In this document: in pieces, positions 21,201 through 38,269 of the stretch
How positions within the stretch are numbered: position 1 is the stretch's first letter
How the letters are laid out: each line of letters opens with the position of its first letter
Assembly: GCF_028890305.1 (NCBI RefSeq)
Contig: NZ_JARBXM010000001.1
Span: 64,501-128,500 of the forward strand
Length of the DNA: 64,000 bases
Direction: 5' to 3'
DNA from: Candidatus Methanosphaera massiliense
GTDB taxonomy: Archaea > Methanobacteriota > Methanobacteria > Methanobacteriales > Methanobacteriaceae
Program-made: the position numbers and the translations under genes
The notes under the pieces: generated by a model
Database searches by the model: none
The model's input: only the letters and a program-made list of their open reading frames with translations
What the model was told of the DNA's origin: nothing

Positions 21201-21682
21201 GAGTTAATTGTTATATTATTAGATATTATTTCATTATTTATCTTAAATACAACTGTTCCTGTAGCATCTGATGGAACTATAGCTACAAATGTAGTGTTAG
21301 TACCAGGTTCCATAGGATTATCACTTAAACGAATGTCTGGGTCAATTCTTGTTTCATTTGATGAATCATTTGTTTTAATAGATTTACTCTCTAAATTACT
21401 TGCATTTCTAGAATCATATATACTTGATTTACTTTTAAGAATGTCTTTACTAGTATTCTGCTTGTTTGATACATGTGCTATCTTGTTATCATTTGAAGTG
21501 ATGTTATAATTATTATTAACTTCACTAATTCCAATATTTGAATTTATATTATTATCATTTGAAGATTCGATATTTGTAGTATTAGTACTACTTGAATCAG
21601 CTGCAGATATTGCAGTTATAGATATTAATATGAATAATATTGTTAGGGAAGTTAAAATAATATGACTTCTCTTAATAGAAAT
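18239..21682 (-). CDS. Adhesin-like surface protein: Ig-like domains then beta-helix
   Basis: About 1147 residues when read from ATT at 21682. The first ATG (21313) lies 123 codons further in and would remove the signal peptide. From ATT the N terminus reads SIKRSHIILTSLTILF with an ISAA cleavage region, then a Ser/Asn-rich stretch. Six to seven Ig-like (Big_3-type) repeats follow (motifs FKIN, FTLNG, GVASISY). A beta-helix then begins at VSPKGSDSNIGDKYHPFRT, with many GGAIY turns, and ends with the NYWGSKKPTW cap. The module order is the reverse of the neighbouring adhesin. No C-terminal anchor is visible. I checked the 123 upstream codons and found no stop. Confidence 0.85.
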   Translation of the reverse strand: MSIKRSHIILTSLTILFILISITAISAADSSSTNTTNIESSNDNNINSNIGISEVNNNYNITSNDNKIAHVSNKQNTSKDILKSKSSIYDSRNASNLESKSIKTNDSSNETRIDPDIRLSDNPMEPGTNTTFVAIVPSDATGTVVFKINNEIISNNITINSTLLTYTYEVPEYYNDPTYNLTLSYSGDSKYKPVNVSTLIALTSEETNVDPQITVDNITVKYLSQTQIVAHMAPDVKGVVEFRLNKTKLATVEIVNGTAIYNFNANATRLPGVYRLQVIYAGNYKYSNSTVRSRLTILKLNANLTTENITSKAGSNTTFTSRVIDELGRPVSNALVVYKINQNTIGNITTNETGYAVYHYVIPYQFDDQEYSVQAVLRETSTVNSTRTNATLKLTQLSTRVEVPKISAKINDTVTITATVIDENGNNVLKGVVLFKINGVTTVRKNVSIGHALYTYVPKVNSAKIYNITCIYQGYWKYADSQNNGKLTINKIGTVTTARYVDAKIGKKVVLSASVKDKNQLNVNGGYVRFTLNGKDVGKVAVKNGAANLTYYVGIMKQGAYRLNATYLGSNAYYSSYNLNYMNVTRLNARMVSDAVYVTIGKTAKITVTILDETNHHAENGTVTFTLNGTTIGKATVKKGVASISYRPPNKYNGLTLKYLAKLQANQYYSSAYTINNLTVSSLSTVFVSPKGSDSNIGDKYHPFRTVSYAVGHVSTYGSVILTNGTYSASNIYLNKTIKIIGSGTKTFITGNGKGPIFTVTTNNTHITIKSLTIKNGKSSANRSAGAIVSYGKLNITGVKFINNTATGAYSGGAIYSLGILNLTGVTFTNNAVSNSNGEGGALRLINNTTNINRAWFTGNTAKGTNSTGGGAIYMQDGDLVINSASFNNNRATGKMVLGGAIKAAYGDIVITSSTFLNNYVSGTNIGIGGAINSLGAGLYINKTKFQSNKAYGNTVAGAGAMYIQYAASDIYNTNFTSNLAKSKSVIGGAIEEYYAYSKFVNCIFNSNTLTATQKTSFGGAIYFETGNLTVLKCKFNKNTVTSKNTSIGGAIYTSSNATITNCDFTSNKVTGKYIGGGAIANMNKITISRTNFISNNATGVGNSITAISGSRNSIQNNYWGSKKPTWSKELRGVTKPSKFATTKFSH

Positions 21683-22093: not shown

Positions 22094-22795
22094 ATGCTAG
22101 AACAATTCTGGCAATATGGAATATTAGCAGCAGTTCTAATATTTGGTTTGAAAATAGGATTAGCTCTAGGATTTTCAGGTATTAAAAAAAGAAATGTATA
22201 CTTAATATTAGTTGGGTACTTCGTAGGACTTGTAGTACTATCATACATAGTACAACCATACACCAAAGAACTATATAATTTTGTATATAATTATACCAGT
22301 TACATCTTCGCAGTAATTGCAGCAGTAATTCTTATAACTGGATTTAAAACTGTATATGACTGGAAAGTAACAGGTAAAGACGTTGGAAGCAGTACATGTA
22401 TGGCAGTAGTTGCGCCATGTCCATGTTGTTTTGGTGCAATATTAACTTCAATATTACTAGTATCTCCAATGGCTGGTGTATCATCAGTATCTCTAGGATT
22501 ATTGTCCTCAGTTGCATTAGTAGCTGTGATGGGAATAACCTATGCATTGTCAACTAAAATTGTGAAAAAAATTAATAAACCATATCCTATTGTATTAGGA
22601 AATTTCATGATTTTTATTGGTTTATACTTCTGTCTATGCTTATTAATACTACCTAATATTTCATCATTAACATCAGGATCAGCAGTACAAATTCAATCAT
22701 TAACTGATATAGGTTATATGCTAATTGCAGTGATTGGATTAGTAATACTCGGCATTATATATACTAAAAGAAAAAGCGATTTAATAGAATTCTAA
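22094..22795 (+). CDS. DUF2162 multi-pass membrane protein, HmuT-like putative transporter
   Basis: The protein of 233 residues has about six membrane segments (near 8-26, 33-52, 68-85, 102-150 as two, 163-186 and 208-226) and a short basic C-terminal tail. A cysteine-rich APCPCCFG segment near residue 109 sits at a membrane boundary and may bind metal or haem. I recognise it as the DUF2162 predicted-transporter family. It heads a tight three-gene cassette: an ExbB-like gene starts 28 bp after its stop and a DUF2149 gene follows. In Bacteroidetes hmu operons the same families occur as HmuT, HmuU and HmuV beside a CobN-like HmuS. The substrate here is not known; involvement in tetrapyrrole or metal uptake is inferred. 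Confidence 0.72.
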   Translation: MLEQFWQYGILAAVLIFGLKIGLALGFSGIKKRNVYLILVGYFVGLVVLSYIVQPYTKELYNFVYNYTSYIFAVIAAVILITGFKTVYDWKVTGKDVGSSTCMAVVAPCPCCFGAILTSILLVSPMAGVSSVSLGLLSSVALVAVMGITYALSTKIVKKINKPYPIVLGNFMIFIGLYFCLCLLILPNISSLTSGSAVQIQSLTDIGYMLIAVIGLVILGIIYTKRKSDLIEF

Positions 22796-22823
22796 TAATA
22801 ACTAAGAAAATAGGAGGAATTAC

Positions 22824-23468
22824 ATGGCCAGTACTATACCTGGAGGAGATATTCTAACAGGAATATTGAATGTTGTCGCACAAAGTCTGTTACTTCCAGT
22901 ATTAGTCTTACTTATAATATTTATAATATTTGCAATAATAGAATTAGGAGCTATAATTGCAGAATATACTGGACGTAAGAAAATAACTGCAGAAGAAAGA
23001 AGTAATATAATTAAAGACATAGCAAAGTGTAATACACAAGAAGAGATATGCGACACTATTAATAAAACAAGACTAATCAAAAAAGATAAAAAAATGTTAT
23101 GTGAAATAGCATCTCTTGATAAAGAACAATATAATAAAGAAACCCGAGAAGTGTTAGCAAGAAATCTTATTGAAGACCAAGAATTCAAAATAATGAAAAC
23201 ATTAGAAAAAGATGAAATAGTTGCTAAAGTAGGTTCAGGTTGTGGATTACTAGGTACTATTATACCTATGGGTCCAGGACTAGCAGCTCTAGGTGCTGGA
23301 GATATGATGACATTAACAACTAACTTAACAACAGCATTTAACACAACTACTGCAGGATTAGCTGCAGGTACATTATGTTTCGTTATTGCAAGAATTCGTA
23401 GAAGATGGTACGAAGAGGATTTAACAGCATTATATGATATCGGAGAAGCTATTCTTGAGGTGATGTAA
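22824..23468 (+). CDS. MotA/TolQ/ExbB-type proton channel protein
   Basis: The protein of 214 residues has one N-terminal membrane helix (about 22-42), a long charged cytoplasmic loop (45-130) and two closely spaced helices at 135-160 and 170-190. The signature segments are GSGCGLLGTIIPMGPGLAAL and LTTAFNTTTAGLAAGTL. They match ExbB/TolQ, where Thr residues line the proton path. ExbB forms a pentamer around an ExbD dimer and turns proton-motive force into motion. The stop codon overlaps the next gene's ATG (TAATG), so the ExbD-like DUF2149 protein is probably made in coupling with it. The RBS is AGGAGGAAT. Role: energy source for the putative surface uptake system. Confidence 0.85.
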   Translation: MASTIPGGDILTGILNVVAQSLLLPVLVLLIIFIIFAIIELGAIIAEYTGRKKITAEERSNIIKDIAKCNTQEEICDTINKTRLIKKDKKMLCEIASLDKEQYNKETREVLARNLIEDQEFKIMKTLEKDEIVAKVGSGCGLLGTIIPMGPGLAALGAGDMMTLTTNLTTAFNTTTAGLAAGTLCFVIARIRRRWYEEDLTALYDIGEAILEVM

Positions 23469-23818
23469 TGTCATTAAGAAGAGGAAAACTACGCTCTGGT
23501 GAAGATTTAGATCCTATGTCATCAGCAGTAAACATGACTGATATCATGTTAGTATTAGCAGTGGGTTTTCTAATATTTGCTGTGATGTCTACAGGAGCTC
23601 AAAATATGAACCAAGCAATGTCTCAACAACAGTCCATGCAACAGCAACAACAATCAATGCAACAACAGCAGGCTCAAACTACAGAATTAGATAATAATCA
23701 AACACAACAATTAAATGAAACACCTGAAAATGTAACTAAATCTGGTTCAGGATACCAGGAAATGGGAAAAGTTTATCAAGATCCTAGTACTGGTAAAATG
23801 GTTATGGTGAGTTCATAA
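23468..23818 (+). CDS. DUF2149, ExbD-like membrane protein
   Basis: The protein of 116 residues has a basic cytoplasmic N terminus (MSLRRGKLRSGEDLD), a single membrane helix (about 23-44) and an external tail with a glutamine/methionine-rich stretch (about 50-70). At the helix start it reads NMTDIMLVLAVGF. Asp25 is in the same place as the essential Asp25 of E. coli ExbD, whose motif is VDVMLVLL-like. This suggests DUF2149 is the ExbD-type partner of the preceding ExbB-like protein. No large periplasmic ExbD domain is present, so force transmission must differ. The RBS lies inside the end of the previous gene (GAGGTGATG). Confidence 0.78.
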   Translation: MSLRRGKLRSGEDLDPMSSAVNMTDIMLVLAVGFLIFAVMSTGAQNMNQAMSQQQSMQQQQQSMQQQQAQTTELDNNQTQQLNETPENVTKSGSGYQEMGKVYQDPSTGKMVMVSS

Positions 23819-23922
23819 AAAGTAGGATAAATCCTATCACCACCTTTTTTTATTTTATGAGAACTAATTTTTATACTTTAGAATCATATACTATTTTTTT
23901 TAAATTGCCTATCCTACTTTTT
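23817..23922 (+). terminator. Inverted repeats and T-runs after the membrane cassette
   Basis: A short hairpin TAGGAT-AA-ATCCTA starts just after the DUF2149 stop and is followed by a run of seven T. In addition the 13-base AAAAAGTAGGATA (23817-23829) is perfectly complementary to TATCCTACTTTTT (23910-23922). The arrangement looks like a terminator, so the cassette and the next adhesin are probably separate transcripts. Confidence 0.6.
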
Positions 23923-24091
23923 AATCATAATTATTTATTTTAATTAATTTTGACTATTATATTATATTAAATTTAATTTTAATATTTATATAGAAAAATT
24001 AATTAATTCGTTTAAAAGAAATATAATATTATCATAAATAATCATTAATTTTATATTTATGACAATTATGAATAAAAAAAACGGTGAAAAA

Positions 24092-27000
24092 ATGAAAACT
24101 ATGAGTAAATTCTTGTTAGTTACACTGATTTTATTTATGGTTAGCTTAGGCTGTGTATCGGCGGCAGATGTTTCAGACAATGGAACAAGTCATACAATTC
24201 AAAAAGATACAAGTCAAAGCACAGATATACAAAGTATTAGTAATATTAATAACACTATTAGTAATACTCATAATATTAAAACAACCGTAAATAAAAAAGA
24301 GAATATAAAAACAAGTAATAATAAAACAACGAAAAAATCAACTAATAAAACGTTGAAAAAATCATCTTATACAATAACTAGCGATAATTACAACTTATAC
24401 TTCAAATACAACAAAACACAAAACAAAACAAAAAGTACAAACTTAGTGCAGGCCGGTGACACAATAGACTTACAAGGTACATTCACAAACATGAATTTCA
24501 GTATAGATAAATCAAACATTACACTTACCAGTACAAACAAAAATGCTAAATTATACAACTGTACCGTAAACGTTGAAGGTTTAAACTCAACAGGTGCAGT
24601 AATCAAGAATTTAACAATTACTAACAACAACTACTATGGTAGTGGAATCTATGTTAACAAAACAAAGAACATTACAATCACAAATAACCATATACACGTA
24701 TGGGGTCCATTTGCATTTGCATTAGCGGCAGATCAAATGAATAATAGTCGTGTTTATGACAATTACTTCCAGACATCATGTCGTGAAGATATGAATCGTA
24801 CCCATACAGCAGCAGCATTTGGATTATGTTACTACAATAACATTGACAATAACACAGTTGTAAGTGACCAAGCAAACGGTATATATTTCAGTGTATATGG
24901 ATCAGGACTATTCCAAGGAGGTTACTGTGATTATAATAACGTAACTGGAAACTATGTTACAGGTGGAGACACCTCTTGGAGTTATACTATTCAGATAATG
25001 GGTACTGAGAACACAATACGTAACAACTATGTGAAAGAAGGATATAGGGGAATATCTACTCAAGATTTCACAAATAATTACATTATAGGAAATGAAGTAA
25101 ATGCTACAGCAGAAGGTATCTATGCATGTGAAGGAGCTATAGTTTCTAATAACATAGTTCATGTAAACACAACAACAGTAGGTATCACTATTGGTGGTGA
25201 AGGAGTAATCCTTAATAATAATACCATAACTTCAAATAGTGGATCATGTATTAGAATTATGGCAGGTAAAGCTATAATAACAAATAATAATCTATGGTCT
25301 ACATCAGGAAACGGAATATACGCTAAAGGTGCATACAAAAATATCACAATTAGTAATAATAATATTACTAGTGGAAAAATAGGCATAGTATTCAAAAAAC
25401 AATCAAGTAGTAAAAAAATAAATTATGTAAATGTTACAAACAACAGAATTCAATCATATGATGAATATGCTATAGACTTCTCAGAAGCAGGTGCAAGAAA
25501 TGAAGAAGATGCACATGTATATGTAGCAGAGTCAAATGTATTAAATTGTACATCTGGACAAGGATTAGACTTAGCATACCTACCTCCATCATCAGGTACA
25601 TCTGAAAACTTACCAGATTCAAATAAAACATATATAATTACAGAAGACAACTATTACACATACTTTACCGATGAATATACTGTTAATACCAACAAAGTAT
25701 TAAAGAATGATACACTCATCCTACAAGGTACATTCACAAACAAAAACTTTACATTCCCAATAAAAGTACATGTAATAGGACAAAATTGTACAATATATAA
25801 TGGTACAGTAACATTCACAGGCGATGCTCACGCATCCTCAATAACTAACGTAACAATTATTAACAACAGATATAATTCACCAATTATCAATGTACATGCT
25901 ATTGAAGTAGTAGAAGTAAATAACTGTAATATCACAAACATTAACATCAATAACTATGATAAATGGGAAAGCTTTGGAATATTTTTATATTCATCAAGTG
26001 GTAACACTGTAACAAATAACACAATATTCACATCTGGTGATTACGTAAACTACGCAATATTTGTATATGCATCAGATCTTAACAATATAACAAATAATAT
26101 AGTAAGACTAAACCAAAGTAATATACCTATAGAATATGATTCTGAAATCATGTTTGATGATAGAATCGGCGCTGTTCAAGAGGTATTACATAATTATGGA
26201 ATTATTTTATTATATTCCTCATACAACACAATTAACAAAAACGATGTAAATGTAACATCACAATTTGATAAGTACCAATTCCCGGTGGACACTTGTAAAA
26301 ACAGTGTTGTAGGTATAGATGTTTATTATGATAGTAATTATAACTTTATAACAAACAATAAAATAACAGTAAATAGTTATGGACCATATGAATATGGTAT
26401 GGGAGTCTTAGGAGCACCATGGGGAAGTTCAATTAGTTCATTAAATGCAACTAATAACACATTTAGAAATAATAATGTAGCAGTTAATGGTGGATACTTT
26501 GCTACTGGATTTATAGCAGGATTAAATAGTGTTAACACAATAGTAGAAAACAATACATTCAACGTAAATGCATTACATAACTCCACAGTCCGAGGAGATT
26601 ATGCTTATGGATTAACATTAGAACATTGTCTTAACACAACATTCATAAATAACAAAATGAATGCAAGTGCAGCATCATTATACACTATTGAATTATTTGA
26701 TACTGACAATAACAAAATAATCAATAATACATTCTATGGAGAAGCAACAAATCCATACGGAGTTGCTGGATATGAATCATCATTTAATAGAATTATCGGT
26801 AATAATATTACTATGAGAGGTGCTGATTATGGAAATACATCCAGTGCATTACACAGTGATGCGATTCCTTTCGGTAAAAATGGAATAATGTTTATGACAA
26901 GAAGTTTCAGTAACACAGTAATTAATAACACAATAGATAATAATGCAAGTCCATATGCAGTGAACTTAACCTCAGATACTGTTAATAACACAATAACTGA

Positions 27001-29662
27001 AAATTCAATAAGGTCATCACAATATATTGGAGATAATGCAGTATTAAATGATCATAAATCAAACAAAATATCTCATAATTTCCTATACTTCACAAATATC
27101 ACAGTAACACATGTAAAAGGCACAGTAGGCCATCCAGTTACTTTCACAGCAAACGTTAATTCAACAACTGATGATTTAAAAAATTTAACAGTTGTATTTA
27201 GAATAGGTACTACTATAATAGGTTCATCAAATGTAACAAATGGTGTAGCAACTATTAGATTTAATGATACAAATCTATTAAAACCTACAATATACACAAT
27301 AATTGCATCAGTATCAGGAACAAATTTCCAAAATGCAACTAATACAAATTCATTAAATTTAAACAAGACTAAAACAAGCAGTATAGTTAATGTAAATAAT
27401 GTAACAGGATTACCTGGATCAACAGTTACAATCAATGCAGAAATAAAAGATAATTATGACGCTCAATTAACTGGAAATGCTACATTTATATTAGATGGAA
27501 AAACATTAGGAACTACTAATGTAACTTTAGGAAAAGCATCATACACATATAGAATACCAGCAAATGCAGAAAGTAAGGCATATAATATAACCGTTGTATA
27601 CAGCGGAAATGATGATTACTTTGCATCTAATGGTACTGCTAAATTATATGTTCAAACTAAAACTGTAGCAACTGTAAGCAGTGTAACTGGAATAATTGGT
27701 AATCAGGTAACAATTACATCTAGATTTACTGCAAATGGAAAAGCAATAACTTCTGGAACTGTTACAATATATGTTAACAATTCACTAGTCGGAACTGCAA
27801 AAGTATCCAATGGAATAGCAACATATAAATACACAATACCATCAACATTAGTTGCAGGAAAATATCCGTTAAATGTAACATTTGATGGAACTAATCTCTT
27901 AACAAAATCCACAGCACATAATAACATCACAGTAAACAAGGCAGCAAGTACAATAAGTTATACAGCAACCCATGTCAGAGTTGGCGAACCAACAACATTA
28001 AACATAATAATATCCGATAAAGCAAAAACATTCAATGGAAATAGCGGTAGAGTAACTTTAATGATAAATGGTAAAGACCTAAAATATACAAATGGAACAG
28101 TAATCAGTGCAACTGTAAACAAAAATGGAACAGCAAGATTCAAATTTACAGCTCCAAGCACATTACTAGGAAAAAACAATATAACAATAAAATATTATGG
28201 TAATAACCAGCTAAATAGCAGTACCTCCACATACAAAAATGGTCTTGTAATCTATACCGGACAAGTATATTATGTAGCAACTAATGGTACAAGCAAAAAT
28301 GATGGAAGAACACCAGAAACACCATGGAACTACACATACGCATTTGACACGATAAAAAATAGCAAATACAACAATTCAACACTTTACATCTTAAACGGAG
28401 TATACAAAATTAATAAAACTGTTACATTTAACACCAATGTAAATCTTAAAATAATAGGCTACGACAATGTAGTATTTGATGGAAACAATAAGAAAATTAG
28501 CAGCTTTAACATACAAAATGGATTAATATCCCTAGAAGATATAACATTCACAGGATTTAAAAACACACCTATCATAAACAGAGCACCAAACACAACAATA
28601 AATGGAAACACATTCATAAACAATAAAGGAAGTAATGGTGGAGCAATAAGCAACTATAATGCAAACAATGCTTTAATAACAGACAATGTATTCCAAAACA
28701 ACACAGCTTCATATGGAGGAGCAATATACAACAGAGGAAACAACACAATAATAACAAATAACCAATTCACTAAAAACAATGCAACTATTTCCTCAGGAGC
28801 AATATACAACCTAGGAGTAAACACCAAAGTAACAAACAACCAATTCACAAATAACACAGCTAAAACTCTTGGTGGAGCAATAAATAACTGGGATACTAAA
28901 AACACAGTAATAACAGGTAATAAATTCAACGGTAACAAAGCTAACTATGGTGGATCAATATACTACAGAGGATCAACATTAAAACTCAATAAAAACAACA
29001 TGACAAATAACACTGCACTAGTAAGTGGTGGAGCAGTATTTGTAATAGGTCAAAATAATAATATAACAAACAACAATTTCACACAAAACAAAGCAAAAAC
29101 TGGAGCAGTAATAAATAATTTAGGAACAAACATAAACATAAAATCAAACATTATGCAATATAACACTGCAACTTCATTAGGTGGAGCAATCAGTAACTGG
29201 AATGCAAAATATATAATAATAACAGGTAACAGAATACACCACAACCAAGCACAATATGGTGCAATATATCTTAGAGGAACAAATATAACAGTACAATCCA
29301 ATAACATATACAACAATAAAGCAACATCAAGTGGAGGAGCAATCTACAACATAGGAACCAACAATACTATAACCGAAAACACTATCAAGAATAACGATGC
29401 AAAAAGTTATGGTGGAGCAATAAACAACTATAACGCAGTAAACACGAAAATAACCAATAACAATCTAACAAGTAACAATGCAAGCTATGGTGGTGCAATA
29501 TACACCCGTGCAACAAACACTACAATCACAGGTAACAAAATAACAAGTAATACTGCAAACAGTGGAGGAGCAATCTTCGACATGAAACATGCTACAACAA
29601 CAATAAATCATAACACAATAAAAAATAATCCAACAAAGAATGGACATGAAGAAGTATACTAG
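24092..29662 (+). CDS. Giant adhesin-like surface protein (beta-helix, Ig-like, beta-helix)
   Basis: About 1856 residues from the ATG at 24092, which follows GGTG (24083-24086) at a five-base spacing; in-frame ATGs at 24059 and 24068 lack an RBS. Signal peptide: KTMSKFLLVTLILFMVSLGCVSAADV. The order is: Thr/Lys/Asn-rich spacer (about 25-90); parallel beta-helix with NosD-like NNTI/ITNN turns, interrupted by a second SDNYxxYF-type start (about 95-1000); four Ig-like repeats (about 1010-1400); then a VATNGTSKNDGRTPETPW linker leading into a second beta-helix of GGAIYN turns to the C terminus. It has no anchor. The adhesive role is inferred from the family. Its DNA is full of short degenerate repeats, so recombination between copies is possible. 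Confidence 0.85.
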   Translation: MKTMSKFLLVTLILFMVSLGCVSAADVSDNGTSHTIQKDTSQSTDIQSISNINNTISNTHNIKTTVNKKENIKTSNNKTTKKSTNKTLKKSSYTITSDNYNLYFKYNKTQNKTKSTNLVQAGDTIDLQGTFTNMNFSIDKSNITLTSTNKNAKLYNCTVNVEGLNSTGAVIKNLTITNNNYYGSGIYVNKTKNITITNNHIHVWGPFAFALAADQMNNSRVYDNYFQTSCREDMNRTHTAAAFGLCYYNNIDNNTVVSDQANGIYFSVYGSGLFQGGYCDYNNVTGNYVTGGDTSWSYTIQIMGTENTIRNNYVKEGYRGISTQDFTNNYIIGNEVNATAEGIYACEGAIVSNNIVHVNTTTVGITIGGEGVILNNNTITSNSGSCIRIMAGKAIITNNNLWSTSGNGIYAKGAYKNITISNNNITSGKIGIVFKKQSSSKKINYVNVTNNRIQSYDEYAIDFSEAGARNEEDAHVYVAESNVLNCTSGQGLDLAYLPPSSGTSENLPDSNKTYIITEDNYYTYFTDEYTVNTNKVLKNDTLILQGTFTNKNFTFPIKVHVIGQNCTIYNGTVTFTGDAHASSITNVTIINNRYNSPIINVHAIEVVEVNNCNITNININNYDKWESFGIFLYSSSGNTVTNNTIFTSGDYVNYAIFVYASDLNNITNNIVRLNQSNIPIEYDSEIMFDDRIGAVQEVLHNYGIILLYSSYNTINKNDVNVTSQFDKYQFPVDTCKNSVVGIDVYYDSNYNFITNNKITVNSYGPYEYGMGVLGAPWGSSISSLNATNNTFRNNNVAVNGGYFATGFIAGLNSVNTIVENNTFNVNALHNSTVRGDYAYGLTLEHCLNTTFINNKMNASAASLYTIELFDTDNNKIINNTFYGEATNPYGVAGYESSFNRIIGNNITMRGADYGNTSSALHSDAIPFGKNGIMFMTRSFSNTVINNTIDNNASPYAVNLTSDTVNNTITENSIRSSQYIGDNAVLNDHKSNKISHNFLYFTNITVTHVKGTVGHPVTFTANVNSTTDDLKNLTVVFRIGTTIIGSSNVTNGVATIRFNDTNLLKPTIYTIIASVSGTNFQNATNTNSLNLNKTKTSSIVNVNNVTGLPGSTVTINAEIKDNYDAQLTGNATFILDGKTLGTTNVTLGKASYTYRIPANAESKAYNITVVYSGNDDYFASNGTAKLYVQTKTVATVSSVTGIIGNQVTITSRFTANGKAITSGTVTIYVNNSLVGTAKVSNGIATYKYTIPSTLVAGKYPLNVTFDGTNLLTKSTAHNNITVNKAASTISYTATHVRVGEPTTLNIIISDKAKTFNGNSGRVTLMINGKDLKYTNGTVISATVNKNGTARFKFTAPSTLLGKNNITIKYYGNNQLNSSTSTYKNGLVIYTGQVYYVATNGTSKNDGRTPETPWNYTYAFDTIKNSKYNNSTLYILNGVYKINKTVTFNTNVNLKIIGYDNVVFDGNNKKISSFNIQNGLISLEDITFTGFKNTPIINRAPNTTINGNTFINNKGSNGGAISNYNANNALITDNVFQNNTASYGGAIYNRGNNTIITNNQFTKNNATISSGAIYNLGVNTKVTNNQFTNNTAKTLGGAINNWDTKNTVITGNKFNGNKANYGGSIYYRGSTLKLNKNNMTNNTALVSGGAVFVIGQNNNITNNNFTQNKAKTGAVINNLGTNINIKSNIMQYNTATSLGGAISNWNAKYIIITGNRIHHNQAQYGAIYLRGTNITVQSNNIYNNKATSSGGAIYNIGTNNTITENTIKNNDAKSYGGAINNYNAVNTKITNNNLTSNNASYGGAIYTRATNTTITGNKITSNTANSGGAIFDMKHATTTINHNTIKNNPTKNGHEEVY

Positions 29663-29676
29663 GAAAAAATAAAAGA

Positions 29677-29731
29677 GTGGAAGTGTTAACTATAAAAAAA
29701 TTAAATATACACTTTCACCCTAATTTTTTTT
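29677..29731 (+). terminator. Hairpin terminator after the giant adhesin
   Basis: GTGGAAGTGT (29677-29686) pairs with ACACTTTCAC (29709-29718) with one G-T pair, and an uninterrupted T-run follows at 29723-29731. The rest of the 309-bp gap up to the next adhesin is AT-rich with no gene seen; the AGGGGTGA RBS of the next gene is at 29961-29968. Confidence 0.6.
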
Positions 29732-29971
29732 ATGAAATTACCAGTCCTTTTTTTCCTAATTTTCAAAAAATACTAATTTTTCACATTATTACTCCCAAAA
29801 AATCTATTAAAGTTTATTATTAGCTCTAATTCTAATTTTATAATGAAAAATTATATTATTCATAAAGTTTATATAATCAACCATATAATCAATTAATATT
29901 AAACTTAATTAAAATTATATTGTTTAATTTTTAAAGTATGATTATATAATTAAAAATAGAAGGGGTGAATA

Positions 29972-32524
29972 ATGAATAATAAGAAAGTGTTTTTACTAAT
30001 AGCAACATTAATCCTATTATTTATAGGAATAAGTGCAGTATCAGCAGCTAACAGTACAGACCAATCCGTAACAACAACTGCCCAAGATACTAATACTATT
30101 ACTACCAGCACGCAGGACATACAAACAATTGAAAATAATAACGTTGATTATGCAGTAAAATCCCAACCAACTACCTCTAAGAAAATAAATACAACTTCTG
30201 CTATAAAACATGATTCAAAAAAATCATTGAAAACAGCAGAAAATATCACAGTAACCGACGGAAATTATAACCGTTATTTCAGTGGAGACTCAGGTACAAA
30301 AAATACAATAACAGCAAATAGTACTATTATACTAACAGGTTCATTTTACAACAAAACATTCTATCTTGATAAACAAGGATTAGTTCTTACAGGTTCTGAT
30401 GCAACAATTAACAATGGTCAAGTATTCCTTACTGAGGATGCAATAAATTCAACAGTAACTAATTTAAAAATTGTTACAACAGGTTATCAGGATGCTATTC
30501 ATAATGAAGCAATTGGCGCTAAAATTACCCATAACACCATAAACATAACTAACAATGATGACAACGGCGATTCAGACGTTGATTATGTGACACAAGGAAT
30601 ATATAATAACGTTGACAATGTAACTATTTCAAACAATAATGTGACTGTAAGAGGTCATGCAATGGATATTGATTGGGTAAATGGTGATCGTGCAGGCTTA
30701 GCTAATACATTCGGTATCTTTAATTGGGGAGGTAATAATGTTCTAATAGAGAATAATATTGCTGACGTTGGAAAAGCTGACGAATGTGATGGAACATATT
30801 ACGGTACTATAGATGGTATTGAAATCAAAAACGGTGATAATATAACCATCAATAATAACACAGTAACCATAAGTGGAGCAAGATTTGTATATGCAATAAA
30901 TGCATTAGATACTATAAGTAACATCAACATCACCAATAACAAACTACACATGACTGGTGACAGATACGTTGATGGAGTACAAATTGGTAATTATGCTACA
31001 AATTGTACAATCACAGGAAACAATGTTACAGGACATTGTTATAATACAACCATTTACACAGCAGATAATGAAGCTTTAGCATTTGGTATAATCACATCTA
31101 CCATGGGTGGTGTAGGTCCAACAATAAATATGAACGTAAGCGATAATAATATTAAATTAAATGCTCCAATCGTATACAGTATGGAAATATATCAAACACA
31201 AAACTCTACTATAAGTAATAATAATATTACTGGTGTCGGTAATTATACGATGGGTATTGAACTTGCACACTCTACCAATGCTACAATCACAGGCAACTAC
31301 GTGAACACTACAGGAAACAGTAATATACCAATTAATGAAATTGTTGAAGAAGTAAGACCTGGAAATACTGGAATTCAAATTCAACAAAACTCAGATAATG
31401 CAAAAATCATTAATAACACAGTCTACACAATAGATGTGGGTAATAATTCCAAAGCAGTGTCAATTAATGGAACTAATAATGTAGCTATACTAAATAATAC
31501 ATTATTATCCAATGATGTTACTGGTGATGAAGCTGTAACGATTACAGGAAATTTAACCAATATTACTATATCAGACAATATTAAACCAGTACTCAAAAAC
31601 GATGCTATAATAAATGTAGTCGTTCCTACAAATCCACAAACAAATACTAATATAACACTTGTAGCAACAGCAACTGATGCTAAAACATCAGTCCCACTGA
31701 ATGGTACAGTAGTCTTTAAGTTTAATGGTGTAACTTTAAAAGATAATAATAGTAATCCTATAAAAATTAAAATGACTAATGGTGTAGCTACTTTAAATTA
31801 CACATTAAGTGGTTTTGGTGGTAAAACATATAGGGTAACAGCAGTATATGGTAACGATTCATATAATAGAATAGAATATACTACTAATATGACTATACAA
31901 AAAGTTAATGTTTCTTTCATACAAAAAGAAATAACAGCATATGCTGGTCAAAATATATTACTTAATGAAACTATTCTTGACCAAAACGGTAACCAGTTAA
32001 AAGGTACTACAAAAGCAGCTGTGAAAGTAAATGGAAAAACTATTGCTCATATGAATATTGTTAATGGTCTTCTACTTACAAATATTACTTTACCATCAGG
32101 ATTACGTGCAGGTGATAATAATTTCACTATAGTACTAGGAGATAATAATAGATATTATAGTATGACTACTACATCTAAATTAGTTATTCTTAAAGAGGAC
32201 CCAGTTATTTCTATTGAAAAGTTAACTGCTAAATCTGGAGAATTCATAACTCTTGTAGCACATATCACTACAAGTGTAACAAAATTGCCAGTTGCTAATG
32301 GAAAATATGTATTTAAAGTTAATGGTGGAACTATAAGTAATGTTGATCCAGAAACAATGACAGAAACTACTGTTCAGTCAATTACTAATGGAACTGCTAT
32401 GCTAAGTACATATGTAAATATCTTCTGGGATGATGGTCTATATAATGTAACAGTTGTATACTCTGGTAATAATCACGTTAATTCCGGTAAATATACTGCA
32501 CCAGTCTTAACAATAAAAACCTAA
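29972..32524 (+). CDS. Adhesin-like surface protein (beta-helix then Ig-like)
   Basis: 850 residues. ATG after AGGGGTGAATA. Signal peptide NNKKVFLLIATLILLFIGISAVSAAN. A Thr/Gln-rich spacer (about 25-90) is followed by a parallel beta-helix (about 95-540) with repeated ITNN/NNNV turns, a region rich in Asp-Gly and Asn-Gly turns, and three Ig-like repeats (from about 545), each with a KVNGKT- or FKFNGVT-like strand. The C terminus ends in a short beta strand with no anchor. The start of the helix (NYNRYF...) resembles the same region of the preceding adhesin (DNYNLYF), so the two are probably paralogues by duplication. Confidence 0.85.
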   Translation: MNNKKVFLLIATLILLFIGISAVSAANSTDQSVTTTAQDTNTITTSTQDIQTIENNNVDYAVKSQPTTSKKINTTSAIKHDSKKSLKTAENITVTDGNYNRYFSGDSGTKNTITANSTIILTGSFYNKTFYLDKQGLVLTGSDATINNGQVFLTEDAINSTVTNLKIVTTGYQDAIHNEAIGAKITHNTINITNNDDNGDSDVDYVTQGIYNNVDNVTISNNNVTVRGHAMDIDWVNGDRAGLANTFGIFNWGGNNVLIENNIADVGKADECDGTYYGTIDGIEIKNGDNITINNNTVTISGARFVYAINALDTISNINITNNKLHMTGDRYVDGVQIGNYATNCTITGNNVTGHCYNTTIYTADNEALAFGIITSTMGGVGPTINMNVSDNNIKLNAPIVYSMEIYQTQNSTISNNNITGVGNYTMGIELAHSTNATITGNYVNTTGNSNIPINEIVEEVRPGNTGIQIQQNSDNAKIINNTVYTIDVGNNSKAVSINGTNNVAILNNTLLSNDVTGDEAVTITGNLTNITISDNIKPVLKNDAIINVVVPTNPQTNTNITLVATATDAKTSVPLNGTVVFKFNGVTLKDNNSNPIKIKMTNGVATLNYTLSGFGGKTYRVTAVYGNDSYNRIEYTTNMTIQKVNVSFIQKEITAYAGQNILLNETILDQNGNQLKGTTKAAVKVNGKTIAHMNIVNGLLLTNITLPSGLRAGDNNFTIVLGDNNRYYSMTTTSKLVILKEDPVISIEKLTAKSGEFITLVAHITTSVTKLPVANGKYVFKVNGGTISNVDPETMTETTVQSITNGTAMLSTYVNIFWDDGLYNVTVVYSGNNHVNSGKYTAPVLTIKT

Positions 32525-32758
32525 AACGTTTTTTAACTTTTTTATTTTTTTTTTCTTTAAATTACTCATTTTATAATTAAATTCAAAATATTTAAACTTT
32601 AATAGAAAAATTAAGACTAATTTACTTGAATTTTTATTAATAATACATAAATATATTAAATAAACTGAACTAAAATAGTATTAGTGTATTCTTATTCATT
32701 TATACTTGAATAGTTAAGATAAATAAAAATTGTTGAATACACTAAAAAGGAGTTATAT

Positions 32759-35700
32759 GTGATGAAAAATAAGATCTTTTCATTATGTATGATACTTTTT
32801 GTACTCTTAATTTGTACTACAGTAACTGCAAGTAATCCAGAAGATGTTAATAGTACAACAGCAACACCAACAATGAATGAGATAACTACAATTAATACAG
32901 AATCAACAATATCTGAACTAACAAGTGAAACACATGTTAATGAAGTATCATTAACAACAACAAAAACCAATAAGAAAATAGATACTACTACAACATCGAA
33001 GAAAAAATCAACAGATACAACAAGTAAAACAACGAAAAAAGATACAGCAACTATAACATCAAAAGAGGAACATGCAATATCAGAAATAAAAACTGTAGCC
33101 TCTGAGAAATCATCGTTTAAAACAGGCCCAAAATATATCAAACAAGCAAAAACTTATAGTTTGAATGGAAAAGTTACCTGTGTATATAATAAAACCTCAA
33201 TGACTTACGTCGGAGAGGAAAAAGACGCTATTGGAGTAGGAGGAGCAGTTATTACTGTATACAATGAAAATACAAGTAAAATAGTTACAAAAACGAAATC
33301 CGATTCATCTGGTAATTATGTAATAACAGGATTAACTCCAAATTACTACATAGTCAAATTCGAATATGGAACATATAAAACAGGTGAAGAAGAAGTTCAC
33401 ATCATAAATACTACTGAAAGTTTAAATTATACTTTCATACCCGATATAGCAATTATATCATACTCAGGAAGCTCGAGCGATGGACAATATAATAAATTCG
33501 AAGCCTTGAGAAAACTATCAGATAGAGTATATTTCCTTGAAGGTTATAATTTAAATAGTTCATATGATGTATCTGCTGAATGGATGTTAAGCCATACTAA
33601 CTTTATACTAGTAGATATGTATGCTTTAGGAGAAGGATTCGGAGTAAATACGAACCTCATCAAAGAATCACCAGCATCACAAAATAATAAGGTTGCATAT
33701 ACCTTTGGTATATATGGTTCATTAGTTAACCAGTTAGGCTGGGGATTCCTAGGTAACAGTCCATACTCCATTGAAAACACATATATTGGTTCATACTGGC
33801 AAGCAGAACCTATTAAAGATGAAACTGTCATTAAAACCAATATGAAAAACATGTTAAACTATATATTCTACCTACTAGGAGAAAGTAAAGTAAATCCAAC
33901 CCTAAATGGAAATACCCCCATATTAGCTGGACCACAATGGGGTATTTATTATCCTGGATACAAAATGTCTATACCAATTCCAACCAGTAAACAAATAAAT
34001 CAATGGATACAAATGGACCATGGATATAATGATGATGGATCCGGAAGTTTAAACTGGATGACAAACTACTACAATCCATGGATTCTAGAACATCAAAATC
34101 CAGTAGACATATTACACAACTTTGAACAATGGTACAATAAACACGTTAAATACAAAGGACCTTTCATTGCAATTATAAGCTACTACCAAACAACACCAGA
34201 AGTAGAAGCTCTAATAAAAGAATATGAAAGAAATGGTAGAGCAGCATTTTGTCTATATCAATATGCAACAACAAGTCCAACCATGACAGAATTACTAGAC
34301 ATTGCAGTAACCAATAAAAGCGGTTTATCCCGTGGAATTAGTGCTGCTAGTTCCTTATATTCATGGTCCACATCATATTCACAAATGTCAACAAACATAA
34401 CTGTAGAAACTTATAAACACACAAACATAACCATTCTAAATGCTTTAAGTGGTATTAGTAAATATAGTTATGAAAGTGAATATGGACCACAATCTGAATG
34501 GACATATAAAGTAACAGTTCCTCAGTTTGAAGGAGTTATTGGTGCACTGCCAATTTCTTACGTTGAAGATAATGGAACAACTGTAATTATCAAGGAAGGT
34601 GTGAAAAAGCACGTTCAACTAGTACTTAAATGGGCACAACTTAAAGAGAAAAAGAATTATGATAAAAAAATAGCTATAATTCTATATGACTACCCACCAG
34701 GTAGAGCAAACATAGGTGCATCATATCTTGATGTATATACCAGTGTACATGATTTACTAGTTAAAATGGCTGATGAAGGTTATAATATTGGAATGAAAAA
34801 AAGTGAAATTCCAACTACTGAAGAATTAACTACACTACTCATTGACATAGGTAACAAAGGAAACTGGGCAAAAGGTCTCCTTAATACATATGTTAAAGAC
34901 CATTATGCAAACCTAACTAAAAATCATCAGTTGATAAGTAAAAGTGATTTCCAAAAAATGTATGATGAATTACCAGAAAATCTTCAAAAACAATTAGTTG
35001 CATGTTGGGGAACAGGATTAGGTAATGGTTCAATGATATACAACAACAGTTACCTAGTTATACCTGGTATTTACTTTGGTAATATCTTTATAAGCATACA
35101 ACCAGCAAGAGGATGGGATTCCGTAACCGATTATCATAGTGATGCATTAGCACCACCACAACAATATGTTGCATTCTATAAATATTTATATAAATATTAT
35201 AAAGGAAAAACAGGTAATAGTGTAGATGCAATGATAAGTATGGGTACACACGGAACCCTTGAATGGTTACCAGGGCGTACATTAGGATTACAAGCATCAG
35301 ACTGGCCATTCCAGTTAATTGAGGCTCCAATCATATATCCTTATATTGTATCAAACCCTGGAGAAGGTATGACTGCAAAAGAAAGAAGTTTTGCACAAGT
35401 AATTACACATATGACACCAGTAACAACAGCTTCAAAACTATATGATGAATATGCAGACTTAAGTGATGCTATATCAAATTATGATAGTAACAAAAAAACT
35501 GGTGATTTAAGTAACGTTGAATATTATAAAGAATTAATATTAAACCTTACATCCACTGGTGGTTTTAAATCACCTGACTTCTTAAGAATGAGTGAAAACA
35601 TCACACTATACAATGAAGTAAAGGAAATTGGTGACCAAGAAATAATGAGTATATGTAAAAGTGCAATACTTAACCTATCCCAAAGTCTTAATAAATCAAT

Positions 35701-38269
35701 GAACGGTTACTATAATTATACCTTAAAAGGTAACATGACCTTTGATGAATACTTAGAAAAAATGTATAATTACACAACTAGTGATGAAGCTTTCGAAGAC
35801 TGGCTATCCACAATACATCAAACTATAGAGAGTTTAAGTGGAGATACTATAAACTATGGTGTACATACATTGGGATATGTCTGGAACGATACTGAAATGG
35901 TTCAAGGAATAACTAGCATTGCATCATCACGAACAAGTATACTGCAAGATATTATGAATATTTACTATAATATCGATGGAAATTATTATGATAAAATAAA
36001 ATCCGTTGATTTTACAGAACAACAGGCAGCTATTACTTCAACACTTGAAAGTATTGTAATGAGATTAGTTGATAATGCAACTGTTGAAAATGCTAAATTA
36101 ATGGCTAGAGAACAAAACCAAAACGAAAACAGTAGTTTCTATAATGATCTCTTACAAATAGTAACTTTCATAAATGAAGTTCGTGATAACAAAGAATGGG
36201 CATCTATTATGAACGCTCTTAGTGGTGGATATGTAGAACCAGGATTATCTGGAGACCCAGCATTATCTGATGTATTACCTACAGGTAGATCAATGTATTC
36301 TAGTGATACTACAAAAATGCCTAGTAGAGCTGCATGGTCTACTGCTGTTAAATCAGTAGATCAAATACTAACACAATACATGCAGGACCTCGGAGAAGAT
36401 ACATACCCAGAATTAGTTGGGGAAGTAATATGGGGTACTGAAGTACTTCGTACAGAAGGAATTAGTCTAGCTCAATATCTATATTTACTAGGAGTTAAAC
36501 CAACATGGGATCAAAGCGGAAAAGTAAATGGTACTGAGGTAATACCACTTCAAAACCTTACTATAACAATTGATGGTAAAATATATCAACGTCCAAGAAT
36601 TGATATCTTTGCTACTATTGTATCCAATAACCCATACTGGTTAAGCTTATTATACAATGCAGTAAACCAAGTGAATAATCTAAATGAAAGTATTGAAGAC
36701 AATTATGTTAAAAAACATTATGCCCAATTTAATTCCACATATAGATTATTTGGTCTTAATGGAGCTAAATTAGAAGGTACTGGTGTATCAGATTTACTTA
36801 ACAACATTGCATCATGGCAAAATTCAACTGAAGGTGTAGCTTACGAACAAGCAAGTGTATACGAATCAAGATTATGTAATGCATGGACAGTGAATTCTGA
36901 GGGAAAAATAGTAGTAATTCCAGGACAAAGAGACCTCTTTGCATATCTATTATCCAAAGTTAACCTGATAATGCAAGATATGGACAGTACATGGAGATAC
37001 ATAGATTCAGACGATTACACAGACTGGTTTGGAGGACTCCTGAATGCAGCTAATGTACATGGAGCAATTCCAAACACTATGTTGATAGATATACGTAACA
37101 GAAACAATATAATTTCAAGCACAATTTCCAAAGAAGTCAGTAAAGAAGTAATGACAACAATCACAAATCCACAATGGTTACAAGCAATGACTTCCTCCGT
37201 TGGTGGATGGAACCAACTATCACAAAACTTTGAAAACTTAATAAAAACAATATTCACAACACAAGGATATGAGGAAGATAAAAACGGAAAAGCAATCCAT
37301 AGAACAACAAGTGGAAACTCAACAGGTGCAATTAGCCAAGAATTATTCACAAAAAGCATGAAAGTTATAGTTTACAGTGAATACTTAATAGGTGATGCTA
37401 ACTATAAATCATATCCCCTTCAATCAATGCTAGGTTGGGGTATGACATTAGCTATGAACAACTATTGGAAAACAACTGATAACAAATTACTAAAAGATCT
37501 TATCCAAAAATACGTTGATAATGTAAATAAATGGGGAGTAGCATGTTGTCACCACACATGTGGTAATGTAAATCTCCATGAATGGATACTGAAACGAGGA
37601 TCTGCATTAGGTGTTAAAGGTTTAGAAAGATATTCACAACAATACTACTCAGCAACAAATACTGGAACTGTACTAGGTACCGGTGATTCTGGAACTGGTG
37701 CAGGATCAGGTAGTGGAACCGGTAGTGATACTGGCGGTGAAAACGGTGGAACCAATGTTGGAGGAGACAGCTTCAAAGGATATGGTGACGCTGGAGTATC
37801 TTCAGGATCAGGAGCTTACGCCGGAGCTGCAAGTTATGCTGGTTCAAGCAATGGTAATGCAGCAAGTCAAATGAGTGGATCTAGTACTGGATCAGATTCA
37901 GGAAATAGTGGAAACAATAATGGACAAAATTCTGGAAATGGAACTGATAATGGTTCAGGAAATAGTCAAGGTTCATCTAATTCCGGTTCAAGCTCTGGAA
38001 GTGGAAATAGTACTGAATCAGGTAGTTCTGATGTAGGTCAAGGAGCTAACGGAGGATCCGTATCCTCAGCTAGTTCAGCATCAAGTAGTTCAGCATCAAG
38101 TAGTGGAGCTACAAGTGCTACTGCTGCAGTTTATGCTGTATCCTCAAAAAGTGGAGGACAAGCAGCATCTTCACAAGCTGAAATATCTCTAGGATACATT
38201 TTAGCAATTGTTTTAATTGCAGTATTCTTCTTTACCGGATTTACAAGAAAATCAGCGCGTCAAGAGTAA
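32759..38269 (+). CDS. Exported, membrane-anchored CobN/Mg-chelatase-like protein (HmuS-like)
   Basis: 1836 residues. Order: signal peptide (MKNKIFSLCMILFVLLICTTV..), Thr/Ser/Lys-rich spacer (25-125), a CnaB or carboxypeptidase-regulatory-like beta domain (about 132-225), a CobN/Mg-chelatase H-subunit-like body (about 230-1620), a Gly/Ser/Asn-rich linker (about 1640-1800) and a C-terminal membrane helix (about 1809-1829) with a basic tail. A CCHHTCGN cluster (Cys1596-Asn1603) near the end of the body could bind metal or haem. Classical CobN is cytoplasmic and inserts cobalt; export and anchoring argue against that role and for extracellular tetrapyrrole handling, as in HmuS. GTG 32759 or ATG 32762 may be the start; GGAG lies six bases before GTG. 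Same strand as the DUF2162-ExbB-DUF2149 cassette, with two adhesins between. Confidence 0.85.
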   Translation: MMKNKIFSLCMILFVLLICTTVTASNPEDVNSTTATPTMNEITTINTESTISELTSETHVNEVSLTTTKTNKKIDTTTTSKKKSTDTTSKTTKKDTATITSKEEHAISEIKTVASEKSSFKTGPKYIKQAKTYSLNGKVTCVYNKTSMTYVGEEKDAIGVGGAVITVYNENTSKIVTKTKSDSSGNYVITGLTPNYYIVKFEYGTYKTGEEEVHIINTTESLNYTFIPDIAIISYSGSSSDGQYNKFEALRKLSDRVYFLEGYNLNSSYDVSAEWMLSHTNFILVDMYALGEGFGVNTNLIKESPASQNNKVAYTFGIYGSLVNQLGWGFLGNSPYSIENTYIGSYWQAEPIKDETVIKTNMKNMLNYIFYLLGESKVNPTLNGNTPILAGPQWGIYYPGYKMSIPIPTSKQINQWIQMDHGYNDDGSGSLNWMTNYYNPWILEHQNPVDILHNFEQWYNKHVKYKGPFIAIISYYQTTPEVEALIKEYERNGRAAFCLYQYATTSPTMTELLDIAVTNKSGLSRGISAASSLYSWSTSYSQMSTNITVETYKHTNITILNALSGISKYSYESEYGPQSEWTYKVTVPQFEGVIGALPISYVEDNGTTVIIKEGVKKHVQLVLKWAQLKEKKNYDKKIAIILYDYPPGRANIGASYLDVYTSVHDLLVKMADEGYNIGMKKSEIPTTEELTTLLIDIGNKGNWAKGLLNTYVKDHYANLTKNHQLISKSDFQKMYDELPENLQKQLVACWGTGLGNGSMIYNNSYLVIPGIYFGNIFISIQPARGWDSVTDYHSDALAPPQQYVAFYKYLYKYYKGKTGNSVDAMISMGTHGTLEWLPGRTLGLQASDWPFQLIEAPIIYPYIVSNPGEGMTAKERSFAQVITHMTPVTTASKLYDEYADLSDAISNYDSNKKTGDLSNVEYYKELILNLTSTGGFKSPDFLRMSENITLYNEVKEIGDQEIMSICKSAILNLSQSLNKSMNGYYNYTLKGNMTFDEYLEKMYNYTTSDEAFEDWLSTIHQTIESLSGDTINYGVHTLGYVWNDTEMVQGITSIASSRTSILQDIMNIYYNIDGNYYDKIKSVDFTEQQAAITSTLESIVMRLVDNATVENAKLMAREQNQNENSSFYNDLLQIVTFINEVRDNKEWASIMNALSGGYVEPGLSGDPALSDVLPTGRSMYSSDTTKMPSRAAWSTAVKSVDQILTQYMQDLGEDTYPELVGEVIWGTEVLRTEGISLAQYLYLLGVKPTWDQSGKVNGTEVIPLQNLTITIDGKIYQRPRIDIFATIVSNNPYWLSLLYNAVNQVNNLNESIEDNYVKKHYAQFNSTYRLFGLNGAKLEGTGVSDLLNNIASWQNSTEGVAYEQASVYESRLCNAWTVNSEGKIVVIPGQRDLFAYLLSKVNLIMQDMDSTWRYIDSDDYTDWFGGLLNAANVHGAIPNTMLIDIRNRNNIISSTISKEVSKEVMTTITNPQWLQAMTSSVGGWNQLSQNFENLIKTIFTTQGYEEDKNGKAIHRTTSGNSTGAISQELFTKSMKVIVYSEYLIGDANYKSYPLQSMLGWGMTLAMNNYWKTTDNKLLKDLIQKYVDNVNKWGVACCHHTCGNVNLHEWILKRGSALGVKGLERYSQQYYSATNTGTVLGTGDSGTGAGSGSGTGSDTGGENGGTNVGGDSFKGYGDAGVSSGSGAYAGAASYAGSSNGNAASQMSGSSTGSDSGNSGNNNGQNSGNGTDNGSGNSQGSSNSGSSSGSGNSTESGSSDVGQGANGGSVSSASSASSSSASSSGATSATAAVYAVSSKSGGQAASSQAEISLGYILAIVLIAVFFFTGFTRKSARQE

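Follow-up and report, generated by a model that had tools for sequence, protein, structure and literature searches.

A CobN-like surface protein is encoded downstream of an ExbB/ExbD-like trio

The window analysed here is a 64,000-nucleotide stretch of contig NZ_JARBXM010000001.1 of Candidatus Methanosphaera massiliense, and all coordinates given below are those of this whole stretch. It contains a trio of small genes, T, U and V, encoding a DUF2162 membrane protein, an ExbB-like protein and an ExbD-like DUF2149 protein, followed on the same (plus) strand by the gene for a very large CobN-like protein. These families and their order, together with a signal peptide and membrane anchor on the CobN-like protein, had been put forward in an original prediction made from the sequence alone, and were confirmed when gene families were assigned by a Pfam scan of the window proteins. 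That prediction did not mention the two intact surface-protein genes, of 1867 and 850 amino acids (aa), that fill the 8.9 kb between the trio and CobN. The genome itself carries one CobN and one DUF2162. The features of the locus are as follows:

22094..22795, plus strand: DUF2162 membrane protein in the T position, 233 aa (PF09930, E 3.4e-64)
22824..23468, plus strand: U, MotA/TolQ/ExbB-like channel subunit, homologue of HmuU (PF01618 MotA_ExbB, E 1.5e-8)
23468..23818, plus strand: V, DUF2149 protein, ExbD-like, homologue of HmuV (PF09919, E 6.6e-19)
24059..29662, plus strand: secreted beta-helix/Ig-like giant, 1867 aa (PF13229, PF16640, PF05048)
29972..32524, plus strand: secreted surface protein, 850 aa (no Pfam family)
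32683..32743, plus strand: leader inverted repeat, predicted hairpin, just 5' of the CobN ribosome-binding site
32759..38269, plus strand: surface-anchored CobN/HmuS/ChlH-like protein, 1836 aa, A type with SDDY motif (PF02514 CobN-Mg_chel, E 1e-181)

Either GTG at 32759 or ATG at 32762 could be the start of the CobN gene. The comparisons described below identify this set as a real and conserved archaeal relative of the Hmu system of Bacteroidota, with a different T protein and different ligand chemistry.

Linkage of CobN to the trio is conserved among relatives

Linkage was assessed in 79 genomes of the family and in a wider set of 114 genomes; genomes are labelled G and fetched stretches L. 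DUF2162 was found in 60 of the 79 family genomes and CobN in 51, the corresponding counts in the wider set being 104 and 97 of 114. DUF2162 was present in 49/51 genomes with CobN versus 11/28 without it (Fisher p 3e-8, uncorrected for kinship). Within the genus (17 genomes), the 14 CobN copies that share a contig with DUF2162, from 12 genomes, are all at distances of between 3.9 and 27.3 kb. The strand of CobN is opposite in G046 and G050, and in G053 CobN precedes the trio; for the remainder, three CobN copies are on other contigs, G071 has CobN without DUF2162 and G068 has neither. U and V were both present for 76 of the 77 DUF2162 rows in the fetched stretches (71 distinct trios, six having been fetched twice). 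In other families and genera CobN, DUF2162, ExbB and DUF2149 follow one another head to tail (L197-L200, L202, L206, L052, L055, L056, L090 and L091), which is likely the ancestral order. A second CobN of roughly 2,500 residues lies directly after the trio in G002 and G059, and stops interrupt the CobN copy that precedes the trio in G125.

These counts establish that the linkage of trio and CobN is not due to chance. The contrary explanation, that they are mere neighbours in an adhesin island without a common function, draws on the 8.9 kb that separates them in the window and on the fast evolution of the two surface genes in between, but with all 14 same-contig copies in the genus falling within 28 kb of DUF2162, and with the genes adjacent in other genera, we consider it very improbable.

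U and V, but not DUF2162, are homologous to their Hmu counterparts

The trio was compared with 25 Bacteroidota Hmu loci by profile search and hhalign. This revealed that the archaeal U profile matches HmuU in 23 of the 25 loci (hhalign probability 99.9, E 3e-37) and the archaeal V profile matches HmuV in 22 (hhalign probability 97.1, E 7e-11), while the one HmuV that was scanned is itself a PF09919 protein (4e-34). The U subfamily motif GT(I/L)IPMGP is common to HmuU, Thr145 and Thr175 of U are present in 84/84 sequences, and Asp25 in the membrane segment of V, which we take to be the equivalent of ExbD Asp25, is invariant (82/82). V additionally has a weak TolR match (2.1e-4), under the cut-off of that model. 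The DUF2162 profile, in contrast, gave no match to HmuT at E values up to 10 in the same loci; hhalign returned a probability of 4.2 with E 0.0099 over 31 columns only, and one HmuT that was scanned matched no Pfam family at 0.05. No PDB sequence match was obtained for U, T or the FmdE-domain protein of relatives at the cut-offs used. The original prediction had staked itself on the DUF2162 and DUF2149 families including HmuT and HmuV, respectively. The second half of this is borne out by the hhalign E value and by the PF09919 assignment of HmuV, whereas the first is not, as far as sequence goes. The likeness to HmuS, HmuT, HmuU and HmuV that it proposed thus stands for U and V, but DUF2162 is not detectably HmuT and, as described in the next section, ligands specific to HmuS are not kept.

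The CobN-like protein is predicted to lie outside the cell and lacks HmuS-specific ligands

The PF02514 match of the CobN-like protein spans model positions 9-1029 of 1090, i.e. most of the domain, and its matches in the PDB comprise CobN (7c6o), HmuS (9d26) and ChlH (4zhj). Hydrophobic stretches occupy residues 1-27 and approximately 1805-1830, the second being preceded by a Ser/Gly-rich region, a long stalk, and followed by a short charged tail. Both stretches are present in 28 of 29 typed A-type relatives, the exception (L216) lacking the N-terminal one. The predicted topology is therefore that of a protein built for the outer side of the membrane, in agreement with the extracellular placement suggested at the outset.

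Individual residues were checked in an alignment of 84 CobN-family proteins, comprising 22 HmuS and 62 archaeal sequences, the window protein included. The column of HmuS His538, within HFG(T/A)HG, holds His in 60/62 archaeal and 22/22 HmuS rows, the window protein reading GTHG; replacement of this residue by alanine abolished turnover in HmuS (PMC12583661, in excerpt). HmuS His1209 and Glu1212 (LSLDHxxEFMGG) are not kept in the window protein, where SDDYTDWFGG places Asp at both positions, and His and Glu occur together at these columns in 9/62 archaeal rows. Of the head-neck haem site, His254 is replaced by Ser in the window protein (His in 21/22 HmuS versus 1/62 archaeal rows), and at the Met79 column it has Tyr, with a Met one column off. 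Within the domain IV insertion interval, the richest 120 residues contain 6 Met in the window protein versus 21 in the HmuS row L152, and an HmuS-type methionine-rich insertion is not evident in the window protein as judged from the alignment, although whole-protein Met counts overlap between the groups (7 to 22 in 22 HmuS rows, 3 to 11 in 61 archaeal rows).

In the PDB-match alignment, the SDDY...GG motif of the window protein is that of Mycobacterium tuberculosis CobN, and proteins carrying it are called type A here. The CobN types adjoining the trio elsewhere carry NDDFFDYWGG, NDDVYQYLGG or an unclassed motif, and the CobN of the thermophile-like runs described below (L197-L202, L206) falls in none of the four motif groups. 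Separately, nine rows (L092, L140-L145, L147 and L148) represent an archaeal CobN type of 1,200 residues with an HmuS-like DLDHYYEF motif. A tree of the 84 proteins was set aside and only the motif groups were retained; with the root chosen, the Bacteroidota rows were not monophyletic, and we make no branching claim.

HmuS works at the membrane, where it takes the iron out of haem (PMC12583661, in excerpt), and the window protein could be a true HmuS-like haem de-chelatase that strips iron from the haem of gut contents, the iron then entering by a ferrous transporter. The homology of the CobN-like protein, U and V to HmuS, HmuU and HmuV, and retention of the essential His538, speak for such a role. 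However, both His1209 and Glu1212 are Asp, His254 is Ser and there is no clear Met-rich insertion; neither HmuY nor a TonB receptor (HmuR) was seen among the 28 window proteins scanned against Pfam, the remaining genome not having been searched for them; and the system is present in thermophile-like relatives. Haem de-chelation is thus, in our judgement, distinctly improbable, and the archaeal Hmu-like system probably handles a metal other than that of Hmu.

Metal-related genes accompany the trio in relatives

In five thermophile-like stretches (L197, L198, L200, L201 and L206) the genes run nicotianamine synthase (NAS), FmdE-domain surface protein, CobN, DUF2162, ExbB, DUF2149. Pfam was run on L198 only (PF03059, 4.5e-25; PF02663, 5.2e-25), the other runs being recognised by clustering and NAS search. 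The NAS of L198 (G122) matches PDB 3fpe with an E value of 5.6e-151 (505 bits over 265 residues), and 3o31, titled thermonicotianamine synthase, is also among its matches. We take 3fpe to be the thermonicotianamine synthase of M. thermautotrophicus. This enzyme is known from that organism (PMC10248798, in excerpt). As the L198 NAS is very close to thermonicotianamine synthase, the thermophile-like relatives are probably Methanothermobacter, which would be heat-loving and free-living, and since these carry the same run, the CobN-trio system appears older than the gut habit. The original prediction had metal or tetrapyrrole taken from the gut host; use of haem or of the gut host finds no support, HmuS-specific ligands being absent and the same run being found in relatives, and the presence among them of L198, with its NAS near thermonicotianamine synthase, makes an origin in the gut host unlikely. 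Going by gene numbering, the CobN of the thermophile run is presumably MTH673. A review of Methanothermobacter puts forward MTH673 and MTH556 as possible nickel chelatases (PMC3087415, in excerpt).

Across the 114 genomes NAS was found in 83, with 79 over the family cut-off, and in at least 11 of the 83 the distance between NAS and DUF2162 is no more than 17 kb (G013, G017, G046, G078, G118-G123 and G125). NAS was also considered as a universal partner of the system and rejected, being missing from the window's own genome and mostly unlinked elsewhere.

A second class of trio is associated with a 1,000-residue FmdE-type surface protein (L035, L040, L043, L048, L081, L083 and L085-L088), and its DUF2162 lacks the cysteine motif described below. 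A gene of the CbiM cluster lies near 8 of these 10 sister trios (L035, L040, L043, L048, L081, L083, L086 and L088), the assignment resting on a Pfam run for L083 and on cluster membership for the others. CbiM is a cobalt and nickel uptake component. Such varied partners could also mean that the trio serves many surface proteins as a general mechanical module, providing tension, release or display of adhesin-like giants, with CobN as one client. Trios without CobN do occur beside FmdE-domain, beta-helix and glycerophosphotransferase-like genes, and adhesin-like giants are the genes closest to the trio within the genus; yet metal genes (CbiM and NAS) account for several of the partners, and the cysteine motif of DUF2162 tracks partnership with CobN, and we regard this explanation as improbable.

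That motif, APCPCCFG, spans residues 107-114 of the DUF2162 protein, where a predicted membrane helix begins (modelled at 110-127). P110, C111 and C112 are invariant in 26/26 aligned DUF2162 relatives of the CobN-linked group and C109 is kept in 90% or more, whereas the motif is lost in DUF2162 proteins linked to the FmdE-domain surface protein. Among the hand-chosen loci L032-L091, examined to approximately 10 kb on either side and with L081 and L087 dropped for a weak CobN label on the FmdE-type protein, CobN was nearby in 19/38 trios with CPCC versus 0/22 without it. With later stretches added, part of which were chosen to reach a known CobN, the count was 34 of 49 distinct CPCC trios. The cysteines may have a metal or electron role.

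An adhesin accompanies A-type CobN, and a predicted leader hairpin precedes the CobN gene

The 1867-aa beta-helix protein was used as a query against the 79 family genomes with a cut-off of E 1e-40. Matches were obtained in 44 genomes, 14 in the genus and 30 outside it, 14 of the latter belonging to genus g10. In the 16 genomes outside these two genera, the best match and CobN share a strand and are within 10 kb of each other in 15 (G005, G006, G007, G014, G016, G020, G021, G026, G030, G043, G051, G057, G060, G075 and G078), G001 being the sole exception with the match on a separate contig, while none of the 14 best matches in g10 is within 10 kb of CobN. CobN is A type in all 13 of those 15 genomes that were typed (G075 and G078 were not). 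Five further genomes with A-type CobN fall below the cut-off and have a gene of the same loose cluster right after CobN (G004, G048, G054, G063 and G072). The 1867-aa adhesin therefore belongs to the CobN set as a conserved companion of A-type CobN. In Methanobrevibacter ruminantium, the BchH-like mru2047, with N- and C-terminal membrane helices, is numbered beside the adhesin-like mru2048 and mru2049 (PMC2812497, in excerpt). The 850-aa protein is nearly genus-specific, with matches at E 1e-20 in 16/79 genomes, 14 of them in the genus; relatives of it lie directly before CobN in L207, L208, L209 and L211.

The inverted repeat AGTGTATTC-N43-GAATACACT at 32683-32743 ends 15 bases before the GTG at 32759. 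Its pattern was absent from 100 shuffles of the window and has a single site in the whole genome, and the window leader folds with -15.4 kcal/mol (z -2.8). Of 20 genus genomes, 5 (two belonging to one species) have the exact pattern, each at a single site immediately ahead of CobN. Among the 15 genomes without it, nine leaders were inspected, of which seven have changed arms (G002, G036, G041, G046, G050, G059 and G065, weakest in G050 and G065) and two (G053 and G062) have none. The start of the stem is kept in 12 of the 13 genomes with folded leaders, G062 being the exception. As the MAFFT alignment of the leaders misplaced the 3' arm, pairs were read sequence by sequence; this revealed, among 11 distinct leader sequences, stem changes that occur in pairs (for instance TTC/GAA to TC/GA or TTTA/TAAA), with very different loop lengths. 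Single-sequence z values across the leaders range from -1.3 to -3.5 (simple shuffles). Neither G053 nor any of the 20 stretches from other genera showed a GTGTAT arm ahead of CobN, and an Rfam scan of the window returned two tRNAs only, without a riboswitch. Paired stem changes and variable loops favour an RNA over a protein operator, and the hairpin is a possible control element of the CobN gene, perhaps a regulatory RNA. An operator common to the T, beta-helix and CobN genes was also considered and rejected, a search for short-spaced palindromes having found one in a single sequence only.

Elsewhere in the window, a divergent Ig-like (Big_3_5) adhesin lies upstream of the trio (18239-21313, minus strand), and a gene of 1,124 to 1,166 residues is kept on its strand and in its place in L033, L036-L039 and L041. 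At 47047-48345 there is a 432-aa protein of the Prismane/CO dehydrogenase family whose best stretch covers profile positions 160-513 of 513, perhaps a short form.

The set may form a cell-surface metal-acquisition system

We tentatively propose, with somewhat less than even confidence, that the trio and the CobN-like protein constitute one cell-surface metal-acquisition system. From the observed genes, their homology, the linkage and membrane residues that relatives retain and a topology predicted to be extracellular, we infer the following steps. The CobN-like body, held outside the cell by its C-terminal anchor, would capture a metal chelate, either a metallated tetrapyrrole or another complex, and release the metal, most likely nickel or cobalt. 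U and V would act as an ExbB-ExbD-like stator through which the ion gradient moves the CobN-like body or the DUF2162 protein, and the latter, via its cysteine motif, may take the metal (or pass electrons) across the membrane, with the beta-helix giant as a structural or docking partner. Acquisition of nickel or cobalt fits better than that of haem from a gut host.

Several observations weigh against this proposal. No residue examined points to a particular metal or ligand, and DUF2162 has no significant fold match. Outside the genus, CobN of the window's A type adjoins the trio in only 1 of 20 fetched stretches (G001). In the majority of genomes with NAS the gene is unlinked, some other trios have non-metal neighbours, and a search of the window's own genome found neither NAS nor an FmdE match, so that the metallophore link comes from relatives with other CobN types.

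The CobN-like protein might instead bind a whole corrinoid or F430, the trio helping to import the intact cofactor. Methanogens need both cobamide and F430, which counts in favour of such salvage, as do the conserved GTHG histidine of the CobN-like body and the location of some sister trios near Peripla_BP_2 and ABC genes. No BtuCDF-type gene was seen among the 28 window proteins scanned, however, and a membrane protein of 233 aa would seem small for a corrinoid importer, making cofactor salvage unlikely in our view.

Returning to metal acquisition, a further-reaching reading is that the CobN-like protein, outside the cytoplasm, removes or inserts metal at the expense of the ion gradient, which would stand in for an ATP-driven motor of the ChlI-ChlD or CobS-CobT kind, and that U and V do not serve an outer-membrane receptor; as a whole we hold this claim to be doubtful. 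Outside the cell no ATP-driven motor could serve, so an ion-driven pair would replace that of the ChlI/CobS type. No ChlI was found in the genome, in a search that did not extend to CobS and CobT; the three PF01078 matches are LonB, MCM and an AAA protein of the PRS2 type. Energising of an extracellular CobN-like enzyme by an ion gradient, as originally predicted, is plausible and can be tested. The accompanying argument that the force must serve a step other than TonB import is sound, as cells that have no outer membrane retain the pairing. An outer membrane is absent from archaea of this order, and it is probably the chelatase or its partner in the membrane that the motor acts on. Given this, the failure to see HmuY or a TonB receptor in the window scan, and the sharing of U and V with Hmu, the work of U and V would need no outer membrane.

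In Bacteroidota, HmuU and HmuV are assigned to powering the receptor HmuR (PMC12583661, in excerpt). The archaeal case suggests that at least part of the work of U and V is on the chelatase side, and if U and V do drive the chelatase, the role of HmuU and HmuV in Bacteroidota would need a second look. With the runs described here, the archaeal role can be put to the test in a methanogen, and the chelatase-side parts of Hmu can be better told from those for outer-membrane import. Nickel and cobalt are metals on which methanogens depend, and such an uptake route would thus bear on methane formation in the gut.

Comparison with known systems

The locus shares with the hmu operon of Bacteroidota (B. 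thetaiotaomicron, P. gingivalis) a membrane-anchored extracytoplasmic CobN-family protein, a small multi-helix membrane protein and homologous ExbB-like and DUF2149 proteins. It differs in that T is of another sequence family, the HmuS residues His1209, Glu1212 and His254 are not kept, there is no outer membrane, HmuY and HmuR were unseen among the window proteins scanned, and the partner genes of archaeal relatives are NAS, FmdE and CbiM. With the class I chelatases CobN and ChlH it has in common the PF02514 body, the GTHG histidine and, as in M. tuberculosis CobN, the SDDY motif, but the window protein is secreted and anchored, has a long Ser/Gly-rich stalk and comes from a genome in which ChlI was not found. 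The MotA_ExbB domain, the weak TolR match of V and its invariant membrane Asp recall the ExbB-ExbD and TolQ-TolR stators, from which the window pair is set apart by the lack of any outer membrane receptor or TonB seen with it and by its own subfamily with GT(I/L)IPMGP. CobN, DUF2162, ExbB and DUF2149 are likewise common to the Methanothermobacter-like thermonicotianamine synthase locus (PDB 3fpe, 3o31), although the window genome is without NAS and the FmdE protein and its CobN is of another type.

The HmuS paper describes the use of HmuS/CobN/ChlH homologues in archaea as unclear, partly since complete hmu operons are lacking there (PMC12583661, in excerpt), and a paper on P. gingivalis HmuS reports, for its chosen set, CobN genes in operons without Hmu homologues (PMC13227078, in excerpt). 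The literature searched, which excludes most subscription journals and was available partly in excerpt, yielded no description of an archaeal run of CobN, DUF2162, ExbB and DUF2149. Against this background, the present comparison indicates that archaeal CobN is indeed accompanied by U and V, though not by an HmuT homologue, and that the set is tied to metal genes.

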